Translations under genes and position numbers: made by a program
Source: Rhodohalobacter sp. 614A
GTDB lineage: Bacteria; Bacteroidota; Rhodothermia; Balneolales; Balneolaceae
Assembly: GCF_021462415.1 (NCBI RefSeq)
Contig: NZ_JAKEDS010000001.1
Coordinates: 902,273-966,272, forward strand
Length of the DNA: 64,000 nucleotides
Reading direction: 5' to 3'
Part shown: positions 49,912 through 55,314 of the stretch, piece after piece
How positions within the stretch are numbered: position 1 is the stretch's first letter
Layout of the letters: each line of letters opens with the position of its first letter
Notes under the pieces: model-generated
What the model was told of the DNA's origin: nothing
What the model saw: only the letters and a program-made list of their open reading frames with translations
The model's database searches: none

Positions 49912-49985
49912 GGTCCGGTAGTTCAGTTGGTTAGAACGCCTGCCTGTCACGCAGGAGGTCGAGGGTTCGAGTCCCTTCCGGATCG
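49912..49985 (+). tRNA. tRNA-Asp (anticodon GTC)
   Basis: 74 bases folding as a complete tRNA. The acceptor stem GGTCCGG pairs with CCGGATC, with one G-U and discriminator G at 49985. Anticodon stem CCTGC/GCAGG holds a loop with GTC at 49946-49948, and the T arm has GGTTCGAGTCC. CCA is not encoded. Its 3' half is the attachment site of the element that follows, and further copies of that half lie at 54818 and 55211. The gene stays intact because the integrated sequence restores the 3' end. Confidence 0.97.
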
Positions 49986-49987
49986 CT
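49944..49987 (+). repeat. attL of the integrated element (tRNA-Asp 3' end)
   Basis: These 44 bases, from the anticodon loop to two bases beyond the tRNA, recur exactly at 54818-54861. That length of perfect identity at a tRNA 3' end, with an integrase gene next to the other copy, identifies the left attachment junction. Confidence 0.92.
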
Positions 49988-49994
49988 TTCCTAT

Positions 49995-50029
49995 AAGCCC
50001 TTAACTCCCATCGAGTTAGGGGCTTTTTT
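49995..50029 (+). terminator. Terminator supplied by the element to tRNA-Asp
   Basis: AAGCCC and TAACTC (49995-50007) pair with GAGTTA and GGGCTT (50013-50025), followed by T6. It differs from the native tRNA terminator, which insertion has moved beyond 54873, so the element brought a replacement. Confidence 0.88.
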
Positions 50030-50070
50030 GTTTCCTTAAAAACCTTCTTTTGTGTAACCTTCATTTTTTC

Positions 50071-50091
50071 GGGGACAACATAGGGACAACA
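50071..50091 (+). repeat. Left arm-type integrase repeats
   Basis: Two tandem copies of GGGACAACA, at 50072-50080 and 50083-50091, spaced 11 bases (one helical turn), about 85 bases inside attL. The same doublet occurs near the right end at 54676-54696 in the same orientation. Tyrosine integrases bind such arm sites. Confidence 0.7.
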
Positions 50092-50559
50092 AAAAATGAT
50101 CTGCCTCCCTTATTTTTGAAGATATTCACACTCACATTTTGAGAGCAAACTCCCCCCTTACTACAGGTTGACAGATAAAAACATTACTTAAGCGAACGGT
50201 TTCCAGTATAGGTGTATAAAAGGTGTCGAAGTAGGGGGGGAGCTATACACAAAGGAGGGGCTTCCTCTTGGTGCTGGTATTTAGAGGCCGGTGCGGTTGC
50301 GGCCTTGCCCCCTGGAATGAGTGAACGTGTACGCCGTAAGCAAGGCCAACAGGTCAACGCTCCCCCTCTGGCATTGCGAAGGCGAACTTTACATAATTTC
50401 TGTATATACGACAGCCGGACAAGGGGAAACAGTTAAGTGAGGAGAGCTGTTGTATAACATCAATTATGTAAAAGTGAGTGAATGAAAGGGGGCTGGAAGG
50501 CCTCTGACTGTCGATTATAGACAATGGAAAGCGCCGGTTTTACCGGCGCGTTACCTCCA
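50092..50559. other. Non-coding left end of the element, rich in secondary structure
   Basis: 468 bases with no convincing gene. Visible structure: GTGTATA (50212-50218) with TATACAC (50244-50250); GGCCTTGC (50301-50308) with GCAAGGCC (50340-50347); G-rich runs such as the seven Gs near 50234. GCGCCGGT/ACCGGCGC (50531-50549) acts as terminator for the minus-strand genes. It could be an origin of replication, a structured RNA or both. A 74-codon frame at 50212 overlaps these stems and looks spurious. Confidence 0.5.
50531..50551 (-). terminator. Terminator at the end of the element's gene block
   Basis: Perfect stem GCGCCGGT (50531-50538) with ACCGGCGC (50542-50549) over a 3-base loop, followed on the minus strand by TTTCC. 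It lies 9 bases after the stop of the last element gene. Confidence 0.65.
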
Positions 50560-50889
50560 TCAAATCTTAAGAACCTCAACTAAGCTGTGAAGGTCATCAA
50601 GTAGGTTCTGTTGTTTCTGCAAGGTTATAGGCTTCCTGGTAGCTCTTCTCTTTGCACGCTCCAGAAAATCCATAACTCCAAGAAATAAGGCTGTCTGGAA
50701 TCGGTCACTGGATACAAGTTTTTTATGAACGGTGGATAGTCTATCCAGATAGACCTCATCCTTTTCGGGATGCTCTTCTAATACTGAATGTATATTTTTC
50801 AATGTACGCTGGAGGTATTCGATTAATTCCAGATCCGTATTGAATTGAGACTTTTTGCTCTTCATAGGTACTGTTTTTGTTTCTGGCAT
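50560..50889 (-). CDS. Element protein of unknown function, last in the block
   Basis: 109 residues, mostly helical by eye (DLELIEYLQRTLKNIHSVLE, RFQTALFLGVMDFLERAKRR). Basic patch AKRRATRKPITLQKQQ near the C-terminus. No family recognised. It begins 11 bases after the preceding gene and is probably co-transcribed with it. Confidence 0.65.
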   Translation of the reverse strand: MPETKTVPMKSKKSQFNTDLELIEYLQRTLKNIHSVLEEHPEKDEVYLDRLSTVHKKLVSSDRFQTALFLGVMDFLERAKRRATRKPITLQKQQNLLDDLHSLVEVLKI

Positions 50890-50900
50890 GGTAGATGGAT

Positions 50901-51218
50901 TTAAGGTTTATCTGTATTAGTAAAAAATAGCCGGTGGACTTGATCGACTAAATTCTTTGCCTGTTGATAATCGGAACTGTGACACTTCCTCTGCATTTCT
51001 TCAAAGCGGTTGTCCAGCTCTTCCAGCATGGCTTTTAAATTGCGAAAGGCATGGTAGATACCGGCGCCGGAATAGTTGGCTTCGTTCTGTTGATTTGCTA
51101 TATCGAGGCCATGTATCAAGTCATCAAGTACAATGATCTGGCTGTCGATACTGTCTCTTAGATCAATGTTGCTGACATGCGAATATTCACCAATGGTTGT
51201 TCTGTTCTCATTACTCAT
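50901..51218 (-). CDS. Small helical element protein of unknown function
   Basis: 105 residues, acidic, predicted helical (SIDSQIIVLDDLIHGLDIAN, AFRNLKAMLEELDNRFEEMQ). One Cys, no metal motif. Similar in size and style to the next gene, so the two may be partners. A G-rich gap of 139 bases separates it from the gene upstream, with room for an internal promoter. Confidence 0.65.
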   Translation of the reverse strand: MSNENRTTIGEYSHVSNIDLRDSIDSQIIVLDDLIHGLDIANQQNEANYSGAGIYHAFRNLKAMLEELDNRFEEMQRKCHSSDYQQAKNLVDQVHRLFFTNTDKP

Positions 51219-51357
51219 GGTTTATTGTTATTTTGTGTTTGGGTTAAACTTTGAGGGGGTTACTGATTGATCTCGGGATACCCCCTCCCCCCTTGGGGGT
51301 ATATTCCTTTCAGAGAGAAAAAGACTCTTAAGGCATCGGTTTCACGGGTGTAACTTC

Positions 51358-51564
51358 TTAGAGATTTTGACCGCCCCCCTTTAGTGCTACTGCAAAGACG
51401 GTGGCGCCGGTAGCAAAGGTTCCCTTCACGGTGTCATGTATCGTTACCTGGTCTGCCTCTCCATCTGATAGCTCCTGTCTAATAGCTTGCTGGCTCGAAG
51501 CATAGAAGAGAGTCCGGCCGGTCATGGTGTGGATAACTTTAAAGCGTTTGCCCTGGTTACTCAT
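51358..51564 (-). CDS. Very small element protein of unknown function
   Basis: 68 residues, MSNQGKRFKVIHTMTGRTLF. Its start overlaps the end of the preceding gene by 8 bases, which supports it being translated. It ends in a Gly-rich segment (ALKGGGQNL). No motif recognised. Confidence 0.6.
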   Translation of the reverse strand: MSNQGKRFKVIHTMTGRTLFYASSQQAIRQELSDGEADQVTIHDTVKGTFATGATVFAVALKGGGQNL

Positions 51565-52312
51565 GGTTCACCTCCACATAATTCTCATAAAAGATTTCAG
51601 GCGGTTCTCCATGCTTTCCATCCAGCTCACTTGCGTACTCTTCAATATCAGATACAAGGGTATCGTAGCTAATACCTTTCTCCAATATCTTTTGAAATAT
51701 TCCCTCCTCTATATGATCGGGGTACTCGTGCTCATACCGGATTAAGCGCCGGTAATCATTAAAGAGTTTTTCAGCTTTATCGAAGTTGGAAGAGGGAGGC
51801 TTCTCCTGCTCTGTCTCCTGTTCTTCTTCCTCTTCCTGCTCTTTTTCCTTATGCCTTTGGGAGTCCCCTTTTAGAGGTCTCTTAGGGGTCTGTTCTGATT
51901 CCTTCCATTCAACAGCCTTTGTCATTACACGTGAATGATTCTGACAGAACCAATCGAATAGGTCATGTTCAATCATCAATTGAGTGTATGATCTGTGAGC
52001 ATTGTTATTGAATGGGTCAAGAGGCTTTCGGGGGCAATATTGATCCGGTACGAAGCTGTAAAGGAGTATTCGATCTACCTTCTGGAGTACCCTTTTTTCA
52101 TCTTCATTTATGTTCTGCAGGAAGCTCTTAAGATCAATCGAATCAATACCGATCTGATAACATGCAAAGTCAAGATCAATGATCCAGACTCCAATATTAT
52201 CACAGTTATCATTGATATACTCCCAAAAGAGTTTATGGCTCGGATGAAGAATCCTATACCAACGCTCCTGCCATCGGTTGGCATTATGAAACCGTTTATG
52301 TGACTGTTGCAT
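51557..52312 (-). CDS. Probable replication-related protein of the element
   Basis: 251 residues. The N-terminal half (WYRILHPSHKLFWEYINDN followed by CDNIGVWIIDLDFACYQIG) resembles winged-helix regions at the start of primosomal or replication proteins in Bacteroidota phages and plasmids. The middle (about 135-170) is a highly charged Glu/Gln/Lys linker, and the C-terminal 80 residues are helical. No helicase or primase motif is present, so initiation or loading is more likely than catalysis. The assignment is by resemblance and by its place in a small integrative element. Confidence 0.5.
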   Translation of the reverse strand: MQQSHKRFHNANRWQERWYRILHPSHKLFWEYINDNCDNIGVWIIDLDFACYQIGIDSIDLKSFLQNINEDEKRVLQKVDRILLYSFVPDQYCPRKPLDPFNNNAHRSYTQLMIEHDLFDWFCQNHSRVMTKAVEWKESEQTPKRPLKGDSQRHKEKEQEEEEEQETEQEKPPSSNFDKAEKLFNDYRRLIRYEHEYPDHIEEGIFQKILEKGISYDTLVSDIEEYASELDGKHGEPPEIFYENYVEVNHE

Positions 52313-52324
52313 CGGTACTCTCCC

Positions 52325-52558
52325 TTACTGGCTTTCAGAAGTTCCGGCGCGTTCATCCAGCATCTTTTCTACGTCTTTCAAACGATAGCCGACAGTCCTG
52401 GAAGAGAGTCGAATTTTAGGAGGGAGGTCGCCTCTCTTCTCCATTCTCCAAAGGGTCTGTTTAGATACGGAGAGTTTCTTGGCCAAATCTAACGGCCGGA
52501 TGATTTCGATACTGTCTGTTGAATTACTCATGGTTTCTACTGTTTGTTTGCGGTTCAC
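52325..52558 (-). CDS. AlpA/excisionase-like helix-turn-helix protein
   Basis: 77 residues, or 68 from an internal ATG at 52531. The core PLDLAKKLSVSKQTLWRMEK followed by GDLPPKIRLSSRTVGYRL is the MerR-like winged helix of AlpA and excisionase proteins (Phage_AlpA/HTH_17). In P4-type elements such proteins switch on integrase or act as directionality factor. The next gene starts 13 bases later. Confidence 0.82.
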   Translation of the reverse strand: MNRKQTVETMSNSTDSIEIIRPLDLAKKLSVSKQTLWRMEKRGDLPPKIRLSSRTVGYRLKDVEKMLDERAGTSESQ

Positions 52559-52639
52559 ATTGAATACAGTAGAAACCTAAAGAGGAGGGAGAACTAAGAA
52601 CAGGTAAGCAATTTCGTTTTATAGGTAATTACTTACCTA

Positions 52640-53416
52640 TTAATCTGGTCTATTGTTGTATGCATTTCTATAAAATTTTTCTTCATCATTGATTGGTACT
52701 CCCTTGTCAATGATCTCCTGAACAGAGTAACGCATTTCCTTTATCCAGCCTCTTAGCTTACTATAAGATTCAGGCCTTCCAAGTCCTGCATTTCTATATT
52801 CCCAAAATTTTTCATAGAACAGCTCCCTGTATATTGGCTTTCTCTTTTCAGTATCCGGCGCCGGTGCGTACTCCTCTTTTAGCTTTTCTAATTCACTTAA
52901 ATAGCCAACTAATTTGCGATAAGTAAAATCTACATTCGTTTGAATCTTTGATTTATTCTTAGATTTGTCATAAACATAGTAAGTAAGATTGATAACCGTG
53001 TACCCTCCCTTTTTATAGTTTTGATAGTACTCTTGAAACTTGTAATATTTTTTTGAGTCGATTCCTAAAACCGACATTTTCTCCATATCAAAACGGTCTT
53101 TAGTTACCTTATCAATTTCATTGATTCGGTTTTGAATATCTGAAAACTCTCTTTGATAAAAGACATTTTTCTTGTCCTCTTTCACTTTCCCTATTTTCTC
53201 AAAAAAGAATCTTATATGACCGTGAACAGCTACCTCTATAGCTTTATCTAAAATATCGTATTGAGCATCTACTATTTTTTGATACTCTTCATCCGGCAAT
53301 TGTCCCTCCATATTCAACACGAAAGGTTCCTGGCCTGTTGCTGGAGTTGTCCAGTGGTCTAATCCATCCAGCTTGCCATCTAACCAATCCTGAAAGGTAT
53401 ATGTATCCTCTCCCAT
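52640..53416 (-). CDS. Element protein of unknown function next to the integrase
   Basis: 258 residues from ATG 53416, immediately after the integrase stop; a longer frame would overlap the integrase by 47 bases. Charged and helical with Tyr-rich stretches (KKYYKFQEYYQNYKKGGYTV, TYRKLVGYLSELEKLKEEYA). No nuclease, ATPase or membrane motif is visible. Coding is more AT-rich than the integrase. In small integrative elements the slot beside the integrase often holds cargo, including phage-defence genes, but nothing in the sequence proves that. Confidence 0.7.
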   Translation of the reverse strand: MGEDTYTFQDWLDGKLDGLDHWTTPATGQEPFVLNMEGQLPDEEYQKIVDAQYDILDKAIEVAVHGHIRFFFEKIGKVKEDKKNVFYQREFSDIQNRINEIDKVTKDRFDMEKMSVLGIDSKKYYKFQEYYQNYKKGGYTVINLTYYVYDKSKNKSKIQTNVDFTYRKLVGYLSELEKLKEEYAPAPDTEKRKPIYRELFYEKFWEYRNAGLGRPESYSKLRGWIKEMRYSVQEIIDKGVPINDEEKFYRNAYNNRPD

Positions 53417-53417
53417 T

Positions 53418-54644
53418 TTAAGCCCCAATCTGAATGATCTTACCCTGTTCCTCTTCCTCTTCATCCAATATCATCTGCAACTTAGAAGCCCAACGGTTTA
53501 ACGCGGTTCGCTTCTCTTCCAGATAGTCGTACCGATCATAGATAGCCGTTACCTGGTTGTCTCCAGCAATGCCTTTATGATTGAGGAGTTTCCCTAATGT
53601 GGTACGATCTACCTTCAATCCGGCAAGGTAGGTGGCAACAGTCCGGCGTAAGTCGTGAGGCCGGAAGTCCTTCACTTCTGCAATTTCCCGGACATCGTCA
53701 ACGGGTCGTTTTATTCCTTCCAGTGGTGCGTTGTCATTAACAGGAGAGGCAAAAACATACTCTTTGGCGCCGGTTATAGGCTTCAGATTTTTAAGCACGT
53801 CAACGGCTAAATTTGATAACGGTACTTGATGTTCACGCTTTCCCTTTGCCAACTCTTTGGGAATAGTCCAGACTCCATTTTTAATGTTCTCCCATTTCAT
53901 GTGGCGCGTTTCCTTAGATCGTTGACCGGTTAACAGAAGCAGCTTTAAAACCGATTTAGCTGGCTCTTGTACCTCTTCAAAAGCTCCCCAAAGGCGCCGG
54001 ATCTCTTCCTCTTCATAGTACCTCTCCCTTTTGTTTTCTCCCCCTTCGTATTTTGTTGTATGGCTTACAGGATTGCTCTCTGTAACTGCTTTCTCCATTC
54101 CAATGGTGTAGATTCGAGACAGCAAAGAGCGAACGCGGTTTGCCATCGTCTTACTCCCTCTTTTATATGCAATGTTATCCAGAAATTTTATGATAAGGTG
54201 TCGATCAATCTCTTTGATTTCCTTATTACCAAAGACCGGTTTAATCTCATTGTCTATGATGCGTTCATACTCATCGGCTGTTTTCTCTCGAAGGGTTGGT
54301 AAATGGTACTGTTTGAATGCCTCCAGTAGTTCGGAAAACATTTTGCCTGGCTTCATACGCTCTTTTTTCTCCTGGAGGGGGTCAATCCCTTTATGGAGTT
54401 GGTTTGATATGCCTCTGGCTTCATCTCTGGCAATAGAGAGGCTCATATTCGGATAGGTGCCAATGGTGAAGCGTTTCACCTTATCGTTATACCGGTATCG
54501 GTACACAAAGGATTTATGACCGGTGGGAGTAACTCGAAGGGCAAGGCCGTTAACAACAGTGTCGTAAACTTCAATTCTCTTTTTTTCCGGCGCCGGATGG
54601 TGACGGACAAAGGAGTCTGTTAGCGAAAGTTTGCTATTAGACAT
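53418..54644 (-). CDS. int: Tyrosine-family site-specific integrase, P4-like
   Basis: 408 residues. The N-terminal DUF4102-type arm-binding domain has VVNGLALRVTPTGHKSFVYR and FTIGTYPNMSLSIARDEAR. A core-binding SAM-like domain covers about 110-200. The catalytic residues are Arg in LLTGQRSKETRHMKW, His-X-X-Arg in PHDLRRTVATYLAG, His in LNHKG and the nucleophile Tyr in AIYDRYDYLEEKR. It recombines the attP core with the tRNA-Asp 3' end. It sits at the attR side, 174 bases from the repeat, with arm-type sites just upstream of its start. Confidence 0.94.
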   Translation of the reverse strand: MSNSKLSLTDSFVRHHPAPEKKRIEVYDTVVNGLALRVTPTGHKSFVYRYRYNDKVKRFTIGTYPNMSLSIARDEARGISNQLHKGIDPLQEKKERMKPGKMFSELLEAFKQYHLPTLREKTADEYERIIDNEIKPVFGNKEIKEIDRHLIIKFLDNIAYKRGSKTMANRVRSLLSRIYTIGMEKAVTESNPVSHTTKYEGGENKRERYYEEEEIRRLWGAFEEVQEPAKSVLKLLLLTGQRSKETRHMKWENIKNGVWTIPKELAKGKREHQVPLSNLAVDVLKNLKPITGAKEYVFASPVNDNAPLEGIKRPVDDVREIAEVKDFRPHDLRRTVATYLAGLKVDRTTLGKLLNHKGIAGDNQVTAIYDRYDYLEEKRTALNRWASKLQMILDEEEEEQGKIIQIGA

Positions 54645-54675
54645 GGCTGGGTTGTTGGGTTAAACTTTTGATCTC

Positions 54676-54696
54676 GGGGACAACAGGGGGACAACA
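54676..54696 (+). repeat. Right arm-type integrase repeats
   Basis: GGGGACAACA at 54676-54685 and again at 54687-54696, the same doublet with the same 11-base period and orientation as at the left end. It lies about 120 bases from attR and directly upstream of the integrase gene, so integrase binding could also repress its own promoter. Confidence 0.7.
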
Positions 54697-54817
54697 AAAA
54701 TTGGAATGCCTCTGTCGTTTGCGTTACCTCAAGTTACTTCAAAACCCTATGATATACAACACTTTACGGAACTTTTTCGGGGGTGCTGAAACCTTTAGCT
54801 ATTTTTATAAAAACTGA

Positions 54818-54861
54818 CTGTCACGCAGGAGGTCGAGGGTTCGAGTCCCTTCCGGATCGCT
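54818..54861 (+). repeat. attR of the element (tRNA-Asp 3' fragment)
   Basis: Exact 44-base copy of the tRNA-Asp 3' part at 49944-49987. It lacks the 5' half of the tRNA, so it is a remnant and not a gene. It continues into the original downstream sequence with the native terminator. Confidence 0.92.
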
Positions 54862-54910
54862 CAAAAAAAAGCAAAGCTGCTCATATAAAAATGGGCAGCT
54901 TTTTTTGTTT
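54830..54910 (+). repeat. Direct repeat A: tRNA-Asp 3' end plus native terminator
   Basis: 81 bases containing the last 31 bases of tRNA homology, an A run, and the terminator AAAGCTGC (54873-54880) with GCAGCTTT (54895-54902) and T run. A second copy at 55232-55314 differs by one substitution and a 2-base insertion in the A/G run. The two copies bracket the GIY-YIG gene. Confidence 0.9.
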
Positions 54911-54934
54911 GAAAGGTATATCAAGATTAAAAGG

Positions 54935-55207
54935 ATGCACTATTTATACATTATATATAGTGAGAAAAGGGGTAGCTACTATTCAGGTCAGACAAAGGAT
55001 GTTAAAAATAGATTATCCAAACATAACAGAGGTCACTCCCTCGCTACAAAAAATGGCATACCTTGGGTTCTTAGAAAAGTTGTAGAATTTGAAACCAAAT
55101 CTGAAGCAATTAAAGCTGAAAATTGGCTTAAAAGAATGAAAAGTAAAAAAGTTATTGAACGAGTTATTCGAGGTAAAATTGATATGCGAGAGGTCATTGC
55201 CGATTAG
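54935..55207 (+). CDS. Small GIY-YIG endonuclease between tRNA-derived repeats
   Basis: 90 residues from ATG 54935 (MHYLYIIYSEKRGSYYSGQT). A TTG at 54905 lies inside the terminator of repeat A and is rejected. The whole protein is one GIY-YIG nuclease domain: IIYS and YYSGQ stand for the GIY and YIG strands, Arg in VKNRLSKHN and Glu in AIKAENWLKRMKS complete the site, as in the UvrC-like single-domain group. The coding DNA is very AT-rich. It has its own copy of the tRNA-Asp 3' end directly downstream and another directly upstream, with no other gene, so it looks like a single-gene cassette. Confidence 0.9.
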   Translation: MHYLYIIYSEKRGSYYSGQTKDVKNRLSKHNRGHSLATKNGIPWVLRKVVEFETKSEAIKAENWLKRMKSKKVIERVIRGKIDMREVIAD

Positions 55208-55210
55208 AAA

Positions 55211-55262
55211 GCCTGTCCCGACCCCTCGGGAAGGTCGAGGGGTCGAGTCCCTTCCGGATCGC
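55211..55262 (+). repeat. Altered tRNA-Asp 3' half downstream of the GIY-YIG gene
   Basis: GCCTGTC, a changed 15-base stretch, then GGTCGAGG, GTCGAGTCCC and TTCCGGATCGCT, aligning with the tRNA-Asp anticodon-to-3' segment. The altered part makes a perfect hairpin, GACCCCTCG (55220-55228) with CGAGGGGTC (55236-55244). The anticodon stem is destroyed, so this is not a functional tRNA. Confidence 0.82.
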
Positions 55263-55314
55263 TCAAAAAAAAAGGCAAAGCTGCTCATATAAAAATGGGC
55301 AGCTTTTTTTGTTT
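55232..55314 (+). repeat. Direct repeat B: tRNA-Asp 3' end plus terminator
   Basis: Second copy of the 54830-54910 repeat. The terminator AAAGCTGC (55277-55284) with GCAGCTTT (55299-55306) has T runs on both strands and also serves the convergent CHAP-like gene that ends at 55321. This copy is therefore probably the one at the ancestral position. Confidence 0.9.

Follow-up and report, generated by a model that had tools for sequence, protein, structure and literature searches.

A minimal GIY-YIG nuclease unit at tRNA-Asp in Rhodohalobacter and its recurrence beside tRNA genes in about 12 phyla

Introduction

In Rhodohalobacter sp. 614A (Bacteroidota), a 90-amino-acid (aa) GIY-YIG nuclease is encoded between two near-identical stretches of tRNA-Asp sequence, which raises the question of what kind of unit the gene and the repeats form together. 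The window analyzed here is a stretch of 64,000 nucleotides (contig NZ_JAKEDS010000001.1, positions 902,273 to 966,272). In a first-pass annotation, the gene and its flanks had been read as what looks like a minimal mobile cassette with a period of about 402 bp that carries its own copy of the target and lies between two near-identical repeats (81/83 bp), each made of the tRNA-Asp 3' end and a terminator. The anatomy of the locus, its recurrence at other tRNA genes and the hairpin found in the displaced tRNA copies lead to a different description.

Anatomy of the tRNA-Asp locus

The two repeats exist, and the 90-aa open reading frame (54935-55207) is the sole gene between them. One pair of segments (54830-54870 and 55232-55272) is 98% identical at a spacing of 402 bp, and a second pair (54863-54910 and 55267-55314) is 98% identical at a spacing of 404 bp. 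The core of the tRNA 3' end is found three times in the window (at 49963, 54837 and 55239; two exact copies and one with a single mismatch) against 0.00 expected by chance, which, together with the recurrence of such repeats elsewhere, rules out a chance origin. The features of the locus are the following:

49912-49986, plus strand: functional tRNA-Asp(GTC) (ARAGORN; Rfam tRNA, 70.7 bits)
49944-49987, plus strand: left attachment copy, in which 44 bp of the tRNA-Asp 3' half match 54818-54861 exactly (direct sequence comparison)
49988-54817, no strand: separate integrative element inside tRNA-Asp, outside the GIY-YIG unit, which splits the unit from the tRNA (integrase and AlpA-like genes)
54818-54910, plus strand: original tRNA-Asp 3' half and intrinsic terminator; right attachment copy of the integrase element and first repeat of the first-pass annotation (sequence comparison)
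54935-55207, plus strand: GIY-YIG nuclease gene, 90 aa, single UPF0213/Slx1-like catalytic domain (Pfam, AlphaFold2, Foldseek, conserved residues)
55202-55262, plus strand: decoy (pseudo-) tRNA-Asp, in which a D-arm remnant, fused to the end of the GIY-YIG gene, is followed by a hairpin for the anticodon arm and by the 3' half (sequence comparison; same form at related tRNA-Asp and tRNA-Gly loci)
55216-55231, plus strand: hairpin TCCCGACCCCTCGGGA, the family-wide TCCCG...CGGGA palindrome (palindrome; enrichment and tRNA-arm position in related loci)
55263-55314, plus strand: second tRNA-Asp terminator copy (98% identical to 54863-54910; folds as a terminator hairpin)

The left repeat is indeed a tRNA-Asp 3' end with its terminator, although it starts at 54818. 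It looks free-standing because a separate 4.9-kb integrase element displaced the 3' end of the resident tRNA-Asp. This neighbouring element encodes a tyrosine integrase with Arm-DNA-binding and Phage_integrase domains (53418-54644, minus strand) and an AlpA-like regulator (52325-52558, minus strand); no integrase gene lies within 54818-55314. The right repeat (55202-55314) does not fit the same description: it extends back into the D-arm-like GATTAGAAAGCCTG, the palindrome TCCCGACCCCTCGGGA takes the place of the anticodon arm, and no cloverleaf fold was found for the decoy RNA of the window. Replacement of the anticodon arm by a hairpin recurs in alignments of related loci. Since the left repeat is part of the resident tRNA, from which the integrase element has cut it off, and the right one is a defunct tRNA copy that bears a conserved hairpin, the reading as a target-duplication cassette between equal repeats is rejected. 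Before the integrase element arrived, the order would have been tRNA-Asp, terminator, GIY-YIG gene, decoy tRNA-Asp, terminator. The resident tRNA-Asp is single-copy, with one full-length match in its own genome; other matches are tRNAs of 75-78% identity.

Repeats of the GGGGTAAC/GGGACAAC type also lie behind the tRNA-Asp or tRNA-Gly of several congeners (L103, L111, L120, L273), which suggests that these repeats and the 4.9-kb integrase element represent a family of tRNA integrative elements.

Family and structure of the nuclease

The 90-aa protein matches Pfam PF01541 (E 4e-14) and thus belongs to the GIY-YIG superfamily. Among 22 homologs, Tyr16, Gly18, Arg26, His30 and Lys66 are invariant, while Tyr5 and Glu62 are nearly so. 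The AlphaFold2 model reaches a pLDDT of 96.5, and the best Foldseek matches are UPF0213 (1zg2) and Slx1, followed by the catalytic domains of I-TevI and UvrC. The relationship to UPF0213 proteins (1zg2 and 1ywl) is apparent in both sequence and structure, that to Slx1 in structure. According to Pfam and the predicted structure, the protein consists of one catalytic domain, with no separate DNA-binding domain. A separate sequence-specific DNA-binding domain is typical of I-TevI-type enzymes; because it is absent here and protection of the element-bearing allele from its own nuclease is only putative, the unit is not classed as a homing endonuclease. To our knowledge, UPF0213/Slx1-like families have no tie to tRNA genes. 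No tRNA-gene link is reported in the available sections of a 2006 survey of GIY-YIG proteins (PMC1564403).

Recurrence at other tRNA genes

The triad of tRNA, GIY-YIG gene and decoy recurs at other tRNAs of the same genome, in the genus and in about 12 phyla. Five more GIY-YIG homologs are encoded in the genome. One is preceded by tRNA-Gly and followed by a full-length decoy that bears a hairpin; a pair sits ahead of an intact tRNA-Ser, arranged as a tandem repeat of decoy tRNA-Ser 5' half plus GIY-YIG gene; a fourth directly follows tRNA-Val, and the fifth has no nearby tRNA. Across 59 genomes, homologs adjoin tRNA-Asp, Gly, Val, Met, Ser, Leu, Pro or Asn. That the GIY-YIG gene and the tRNA-derived repeats belong together, as proposed from the window, holds far beyond this genome: 101 of the 138 homologs with enough flanking sequence have a tRNA within 300 bp, and in 101/101 it is encoded on the same strand. 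The same-strand arrangement accounts for 47/75 homologs in the genus search and 54/63 in the cross-phylum set, against about 0.8% expected from tRNA density (our own estimate, based on 43 tRNA matches in 4.7 Mb). Decoy fragments on the far side of the gene score better than the best of 40 shuffles at 44/63 loci in the genus and 58/63 in the cross-phylum set (102/126 in total). For the latter, the species genomes scanned were selected by protein only, and 80 loci were read of 324 confirmed candidate stretches; the profile for the contig scan was a 10-row alignment, the 22-row alignment being too diverse. A scan of viral contigs returned no relatives.

At a typical locus, upstream decoys composed of promoter and 5' half precede the intact tRNA and its terminator, which are followed by the nuclease gene and by downstream decoys composed of 3' half and terminator. 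The hairpin loop is identical in the upstream and downstream decoys of two loci (L013, L016). Tandem units of tRNA, terminator and GIY-YIG gene are present in several species, with the nuclease retained at L027, L042 and L066; tandem units without it are found at L108, L016 and L244. At L108, three hairpin-bearing pseudo-tRNA-Asp copies with a spacing of ~177 bp lie downstream of tRNA-Asp, and L244 contains tandem hairpin-bearing tRNA-Leu copies, in both cases with no GIY-YIG gene near. At L016 (178-476 relative to the tRNA), two 178-bp units, in which the GIY-YIG gene is reduced to its first codons and joined to a decoy tRNA, resemble deletion derivatives. Other GIY-YIG relatives in the same genomes (e.g. 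L075, L079, L080) have no nearby tRNA. At loci lacking a tRNA, Rfam returned one tRNA-like match with an insertion (L198) and one unrelated sRNA, and no other RNA class.

GIY-YIG subfamilies track tRNA identity: on a nuclease tree built from few columns and with many weak forks, tRNA identity changes 36 times, compared to 80-94 times in 200 shuffles.

Proposed mechanism

The explanation favoured here, with somewhat better than even confidence, is that the window unit belongs to a widespread family of minimal elements at tRNA genes, in which nuclease-provoked breaks and recombination between tRNA copies allow spread to empty alleles. The nuclease gene is placed between a working tRNA and a disabled copy on the same strand. 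Downstream of the tRNA, it is accompanied by a decoy that keeps the 3' half and terminator; upstream, by one that keeps the 5' half along with the promoter. In the decoy, the TCCCG...CGGGA hairpin takes the place of the anticodon, T or D arm. The nuclease would induce breakage at the tRNA locus or close to it; judging from its Slx1/UPF0213 relatives, it would act on the hairpin or on DNA in branched or hairpin form, and by analogy to SegB the hairpin is proposed as the likely substrate or as a protective mark. Recombinational repair between the tRNA copies would then duplicate the unit of tRNA and nuclease, which could thereby reach alleles of that tRNA still lacking it. Of the two homology arms, one would come from the working tRNA and the other from the decoy, and the host would never lose its tRNA. 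Such an element is probably selfish and homing-like, duplicating tRNA loci. The loci compared show the anatomy of the unit and its recurrence, the conserved hairpin, the match of nuclease subfamily to tRNA, purifying selection, the lack of decoys at empty sites and the tandem units; the nuclease substrate and its cleavage, break-induced copying, mobility, transfer between genomes and selfishness are inferred. Several observations speak against the explanation: the protein has no separate DNA-binding domain, the intact tRNA can be identical with and without the unit, nuclease identity partly follows MnmG identity for Gly and Asp, similar hairpins lie far from any GIY-YIG gene, and hairpin and nuclease numbers correlate only weakly within the genus (rho 0.32, p 0.10). 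A further proposal, advanced tentatively and given slightly less than even weight, is that the units represent a new class of element in many phyla, in which a structure-specific single-domain GIY-YIG nuclease is paired with a hairpin decoy tRNA as cis-acting site, while the tRNA gene supplies homology arms and landing site.

Occupied and empty sites

The presence of the nuclease is patchy among congeners, and empty allelic sites are found at both tRNA-Gly and tRNA-Asp, as expected for a SegB-like locus. At tRNA-Gly, the nuclease is present in 8 of 30 genomes, and hairpins are found at 8/8 occupied and 0/22 empty sites. At tRNA-Asp, hairpins are found at 5/5 occupied sites vs 2/21 empty ones, with contigs cut near the tRNA set aside and one of the 21 "empty" sites being the window itself, whose unit is hidden by the integrase element. 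Outgroup families have a clean tRNA-Asp with mnmG close behind. Relatives without the gene are thus also without the duplicated copy, both for the hairpin decoy at tRNA-Gly and for tRNA-Asp in the outgroup. Repeats already in place at empty sites, or a lack of association between such genes and tRNA repeats elsewhere, would have counted against the link drawn in the first-pass annotation; neither was encountered.

The intact tRNA sequence can be identical between occupied and empty genomes; therefore, the tRNA coding sequence alone does not represent a discriminating homing target. Targeting of the coding sequence as such is disfavoured for this reason, and the target is possibly located in flanking DNA or at the hairpin. 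Among congeneric species, the anticodon and T stems of tRNA-Gly(GCC) vary by compensatory changes (L256-L276).

Terminators and spacers are often alike within one locus but differ from species to species, a pattern that favours local tandem duplication or gene conversion over an imported target copy. These matches, the tandem arrays both with and without nuclease and the SegB precedent also argue for a simpler scenario, in which the nuclease drives tandem duplication of its own tRNA locus, surplus copies decay and inheritance is vertical, with no homing between genomes. In addition, nuclease identity correlates with MnmG identity for tRNA-Gly (rho 0.68) and tRNA-Asp (rho 0.47), not for other tRNAs, and much of the pattern may therefore be vertical with losses. 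Decay, however, leaves unexplained why decoy tRNA arms of many phyla share a common TCCCG...CGGGA hairpin. The broad phylum distribution also argues against this scenario, as does sister species G005, in which tRNA-Gly is 97% identical to that of the window genome, yet the unit is absent. Amplification that is local only is accordingly regarded as unlikely.

The TCCCG...CGGGA hairpin

In the cross-phylum set, the hairpin reaches a density of 2.2 per kb on the decoy side vs 0.02 per kb in far flanks (~100-fold), and three control palindromes gave 0 matches; in the genus set, the values are 0.87 and 0.01 per kb. This enrichment over control palindromes and far flanks rules out an ordinary terminator or a chance palindrome. 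Among 75 hairpins flanked by tRNA sequence, 48 start with TCCCG. They occupy anticodon, T or D arms at positions that are repeated between species and phyla, replacing, for example, tRNA positions 28-44 in Ala, Met, Leu, Arg and Pro. The distal stem of the hairpin varies yet remains paired, which suggests that the stem-loop structure matters. Some decoys contain double hairpins of ~22 bp.

The hairpins are not restricted to decoys next to a nuclease gene. The genome of the window contains 12 TCCCG...CGGGA sites against 0 for the control, congeners contain up to 59, and dispersed conserved palindromes of this kind are a feature of REP/RAYT systems. Loops in apparent RNase P RNA, in the 23S region and in dispersed repeats are also capped by these palindromes, and similar hairpins occur with no GIY-YIG gene near. 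In two relatives, TCCCGA...TCGGGA hairpins were located by eye in apparent RNase P RNA genes (L247, 324-639; L248, 380-690). At L134 (1501-1516; G000:C10:3582), the 5' half of a pseudo-tRNA-Ile bears the hairpin and directly precedes an intact tRNA-Ile, with no nuclease gene; this tRNA-Ile adjoins tRNA-Ala, apparently in an rRNA operon.

The dispersed copies allow for a reading in which the hairpin itself moves as a REP-like palindrome, with the GIY-YIG protein as its mobility nuclease (the part that RAYT/TnpA-REP has for REPs) and decoy tRNAs as preferred landing sites. The Slx1-like fold and the co-occurrence of hairpin and nuclease at the tRNA-Gly sites are in agreement with it, as is the ~4-fold higher hairpin density in genomes with the nuclease (median 3.5 vs 0.8 per Mb; Spearman 0.64, 59 genomes). 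Nevertheless, the correlation between hairpin and nuclease numbers is non-significant within the genus (rho 0.32, p 0.10) and outside it, the idea that hairpin number simply follows nuclease number finds no support within the genus, and certain genomes have hairpins and no detected nuclease or the reverse. As the position of the nuclease beside an intact same-strand tRNA is also left unexplained, mobilization of the hairpin is considered improbable.

Selection on the nuclease

The medians of dN/dS for the nuclease are 0.04-0.11, with most dS values saturated, and by this measure the gene is under strong purifying selection. This selection, the long tie of each subfamily to one tRNA and weak PADLOC similarities to PDC-S14 and UzuA could speak for a nuclease domesticated by the host to protect or maintain tRNA genes, to process decoy RNA or to serve in defence, but the PADLOC matches span only ~30 residues of the nuclease domain, the gene is patchy among congeneric species and some copies are degraded by stop codons or truncations, which renders a host function very improbable.

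Relation to known systems

The homing-like tRNA-gene element favoured here has its closest parallel in SegB of T-even phages. In T6, this GIY-YIG nuclease is encoded beside tRNAs and drives tandem amplification of a unit of tRNA-Tyr and segB, the junction of which shows microhomology between the segB 3' end and the tRNA 5' region (PMC13096335). A free-standing GIY-YIG gene beside tRNAs, tandem units of tRNA and nuclease and a microhomology junction of nuclease 3' end and tRNA 5' region are shared by both systems; the present elements differ in being chromosomal, in encoding a protein that is only the 80-90-aa catalytic domain and in having a decoy tRNA with the TCCCG...CGGGA hairpin. Because its action most resembles that of SegB, the unit is grouped with tRNA-linked free-standing GIY-YIG elements.

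REP/REPIN sequences with RAYT (TnpA-REP) resemble the present loci in that short palindromes are clustered around, and dispersed from, a small single-domain nuclease gene. There, the enzyme is a HuH/Y1 tyrosine transposase, whereas the unit contains no Y1/HuH transposase gene, the GIY-YIG gene being its sole gene, and the hairpins at the gene sit in tRNA arms. Tyrosine-integrase tRNA elements, one of which is in this window, likewise duplicate the tRNA 3' end and leave the tRNA functional. The GIY-YIG unit, in contrast, has no integrase, a hairpin disables its displaced copy, and it also comes in upstream versions with a 5' half. Organelle hairpin elements (double-hairpin elements and sponge RHEs) also place short hairpins in loops of structured RNAs; they are organellar, and a link with a nuclease gene and with tRNA duplication sets the present loci apart. 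A group I intron with endonuclease is rejected, as nothing interrupts the functional tRNA and no intron was detected by Rfam. For the decoy-hairpin part we know of no counterpart. In the literature searched, with subscription journals and preprints largely outside its scope, the triad has no prior description, the only related reports being those on SegB and general GIY-YIG papers.

Significance

If the favoured explanation is correct, many bacteria, especially Bacteroidota and related phyla, would harbour a minimal element for which essential single-copy tRNA genes serve as home and as homology alike, and which leaves disabled tRNAs behind. This would account for the pseudo-tRNA arrays that complicate tRNA annotation and would extend nuclease-driven tRNA amplification, as found for SegB in phages, to bacterial chromosomes. 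It would also point to a possible function for a large set of small GIY-YIG proteins that have none assigned, with the hairpin as a concrete candidate substrate.
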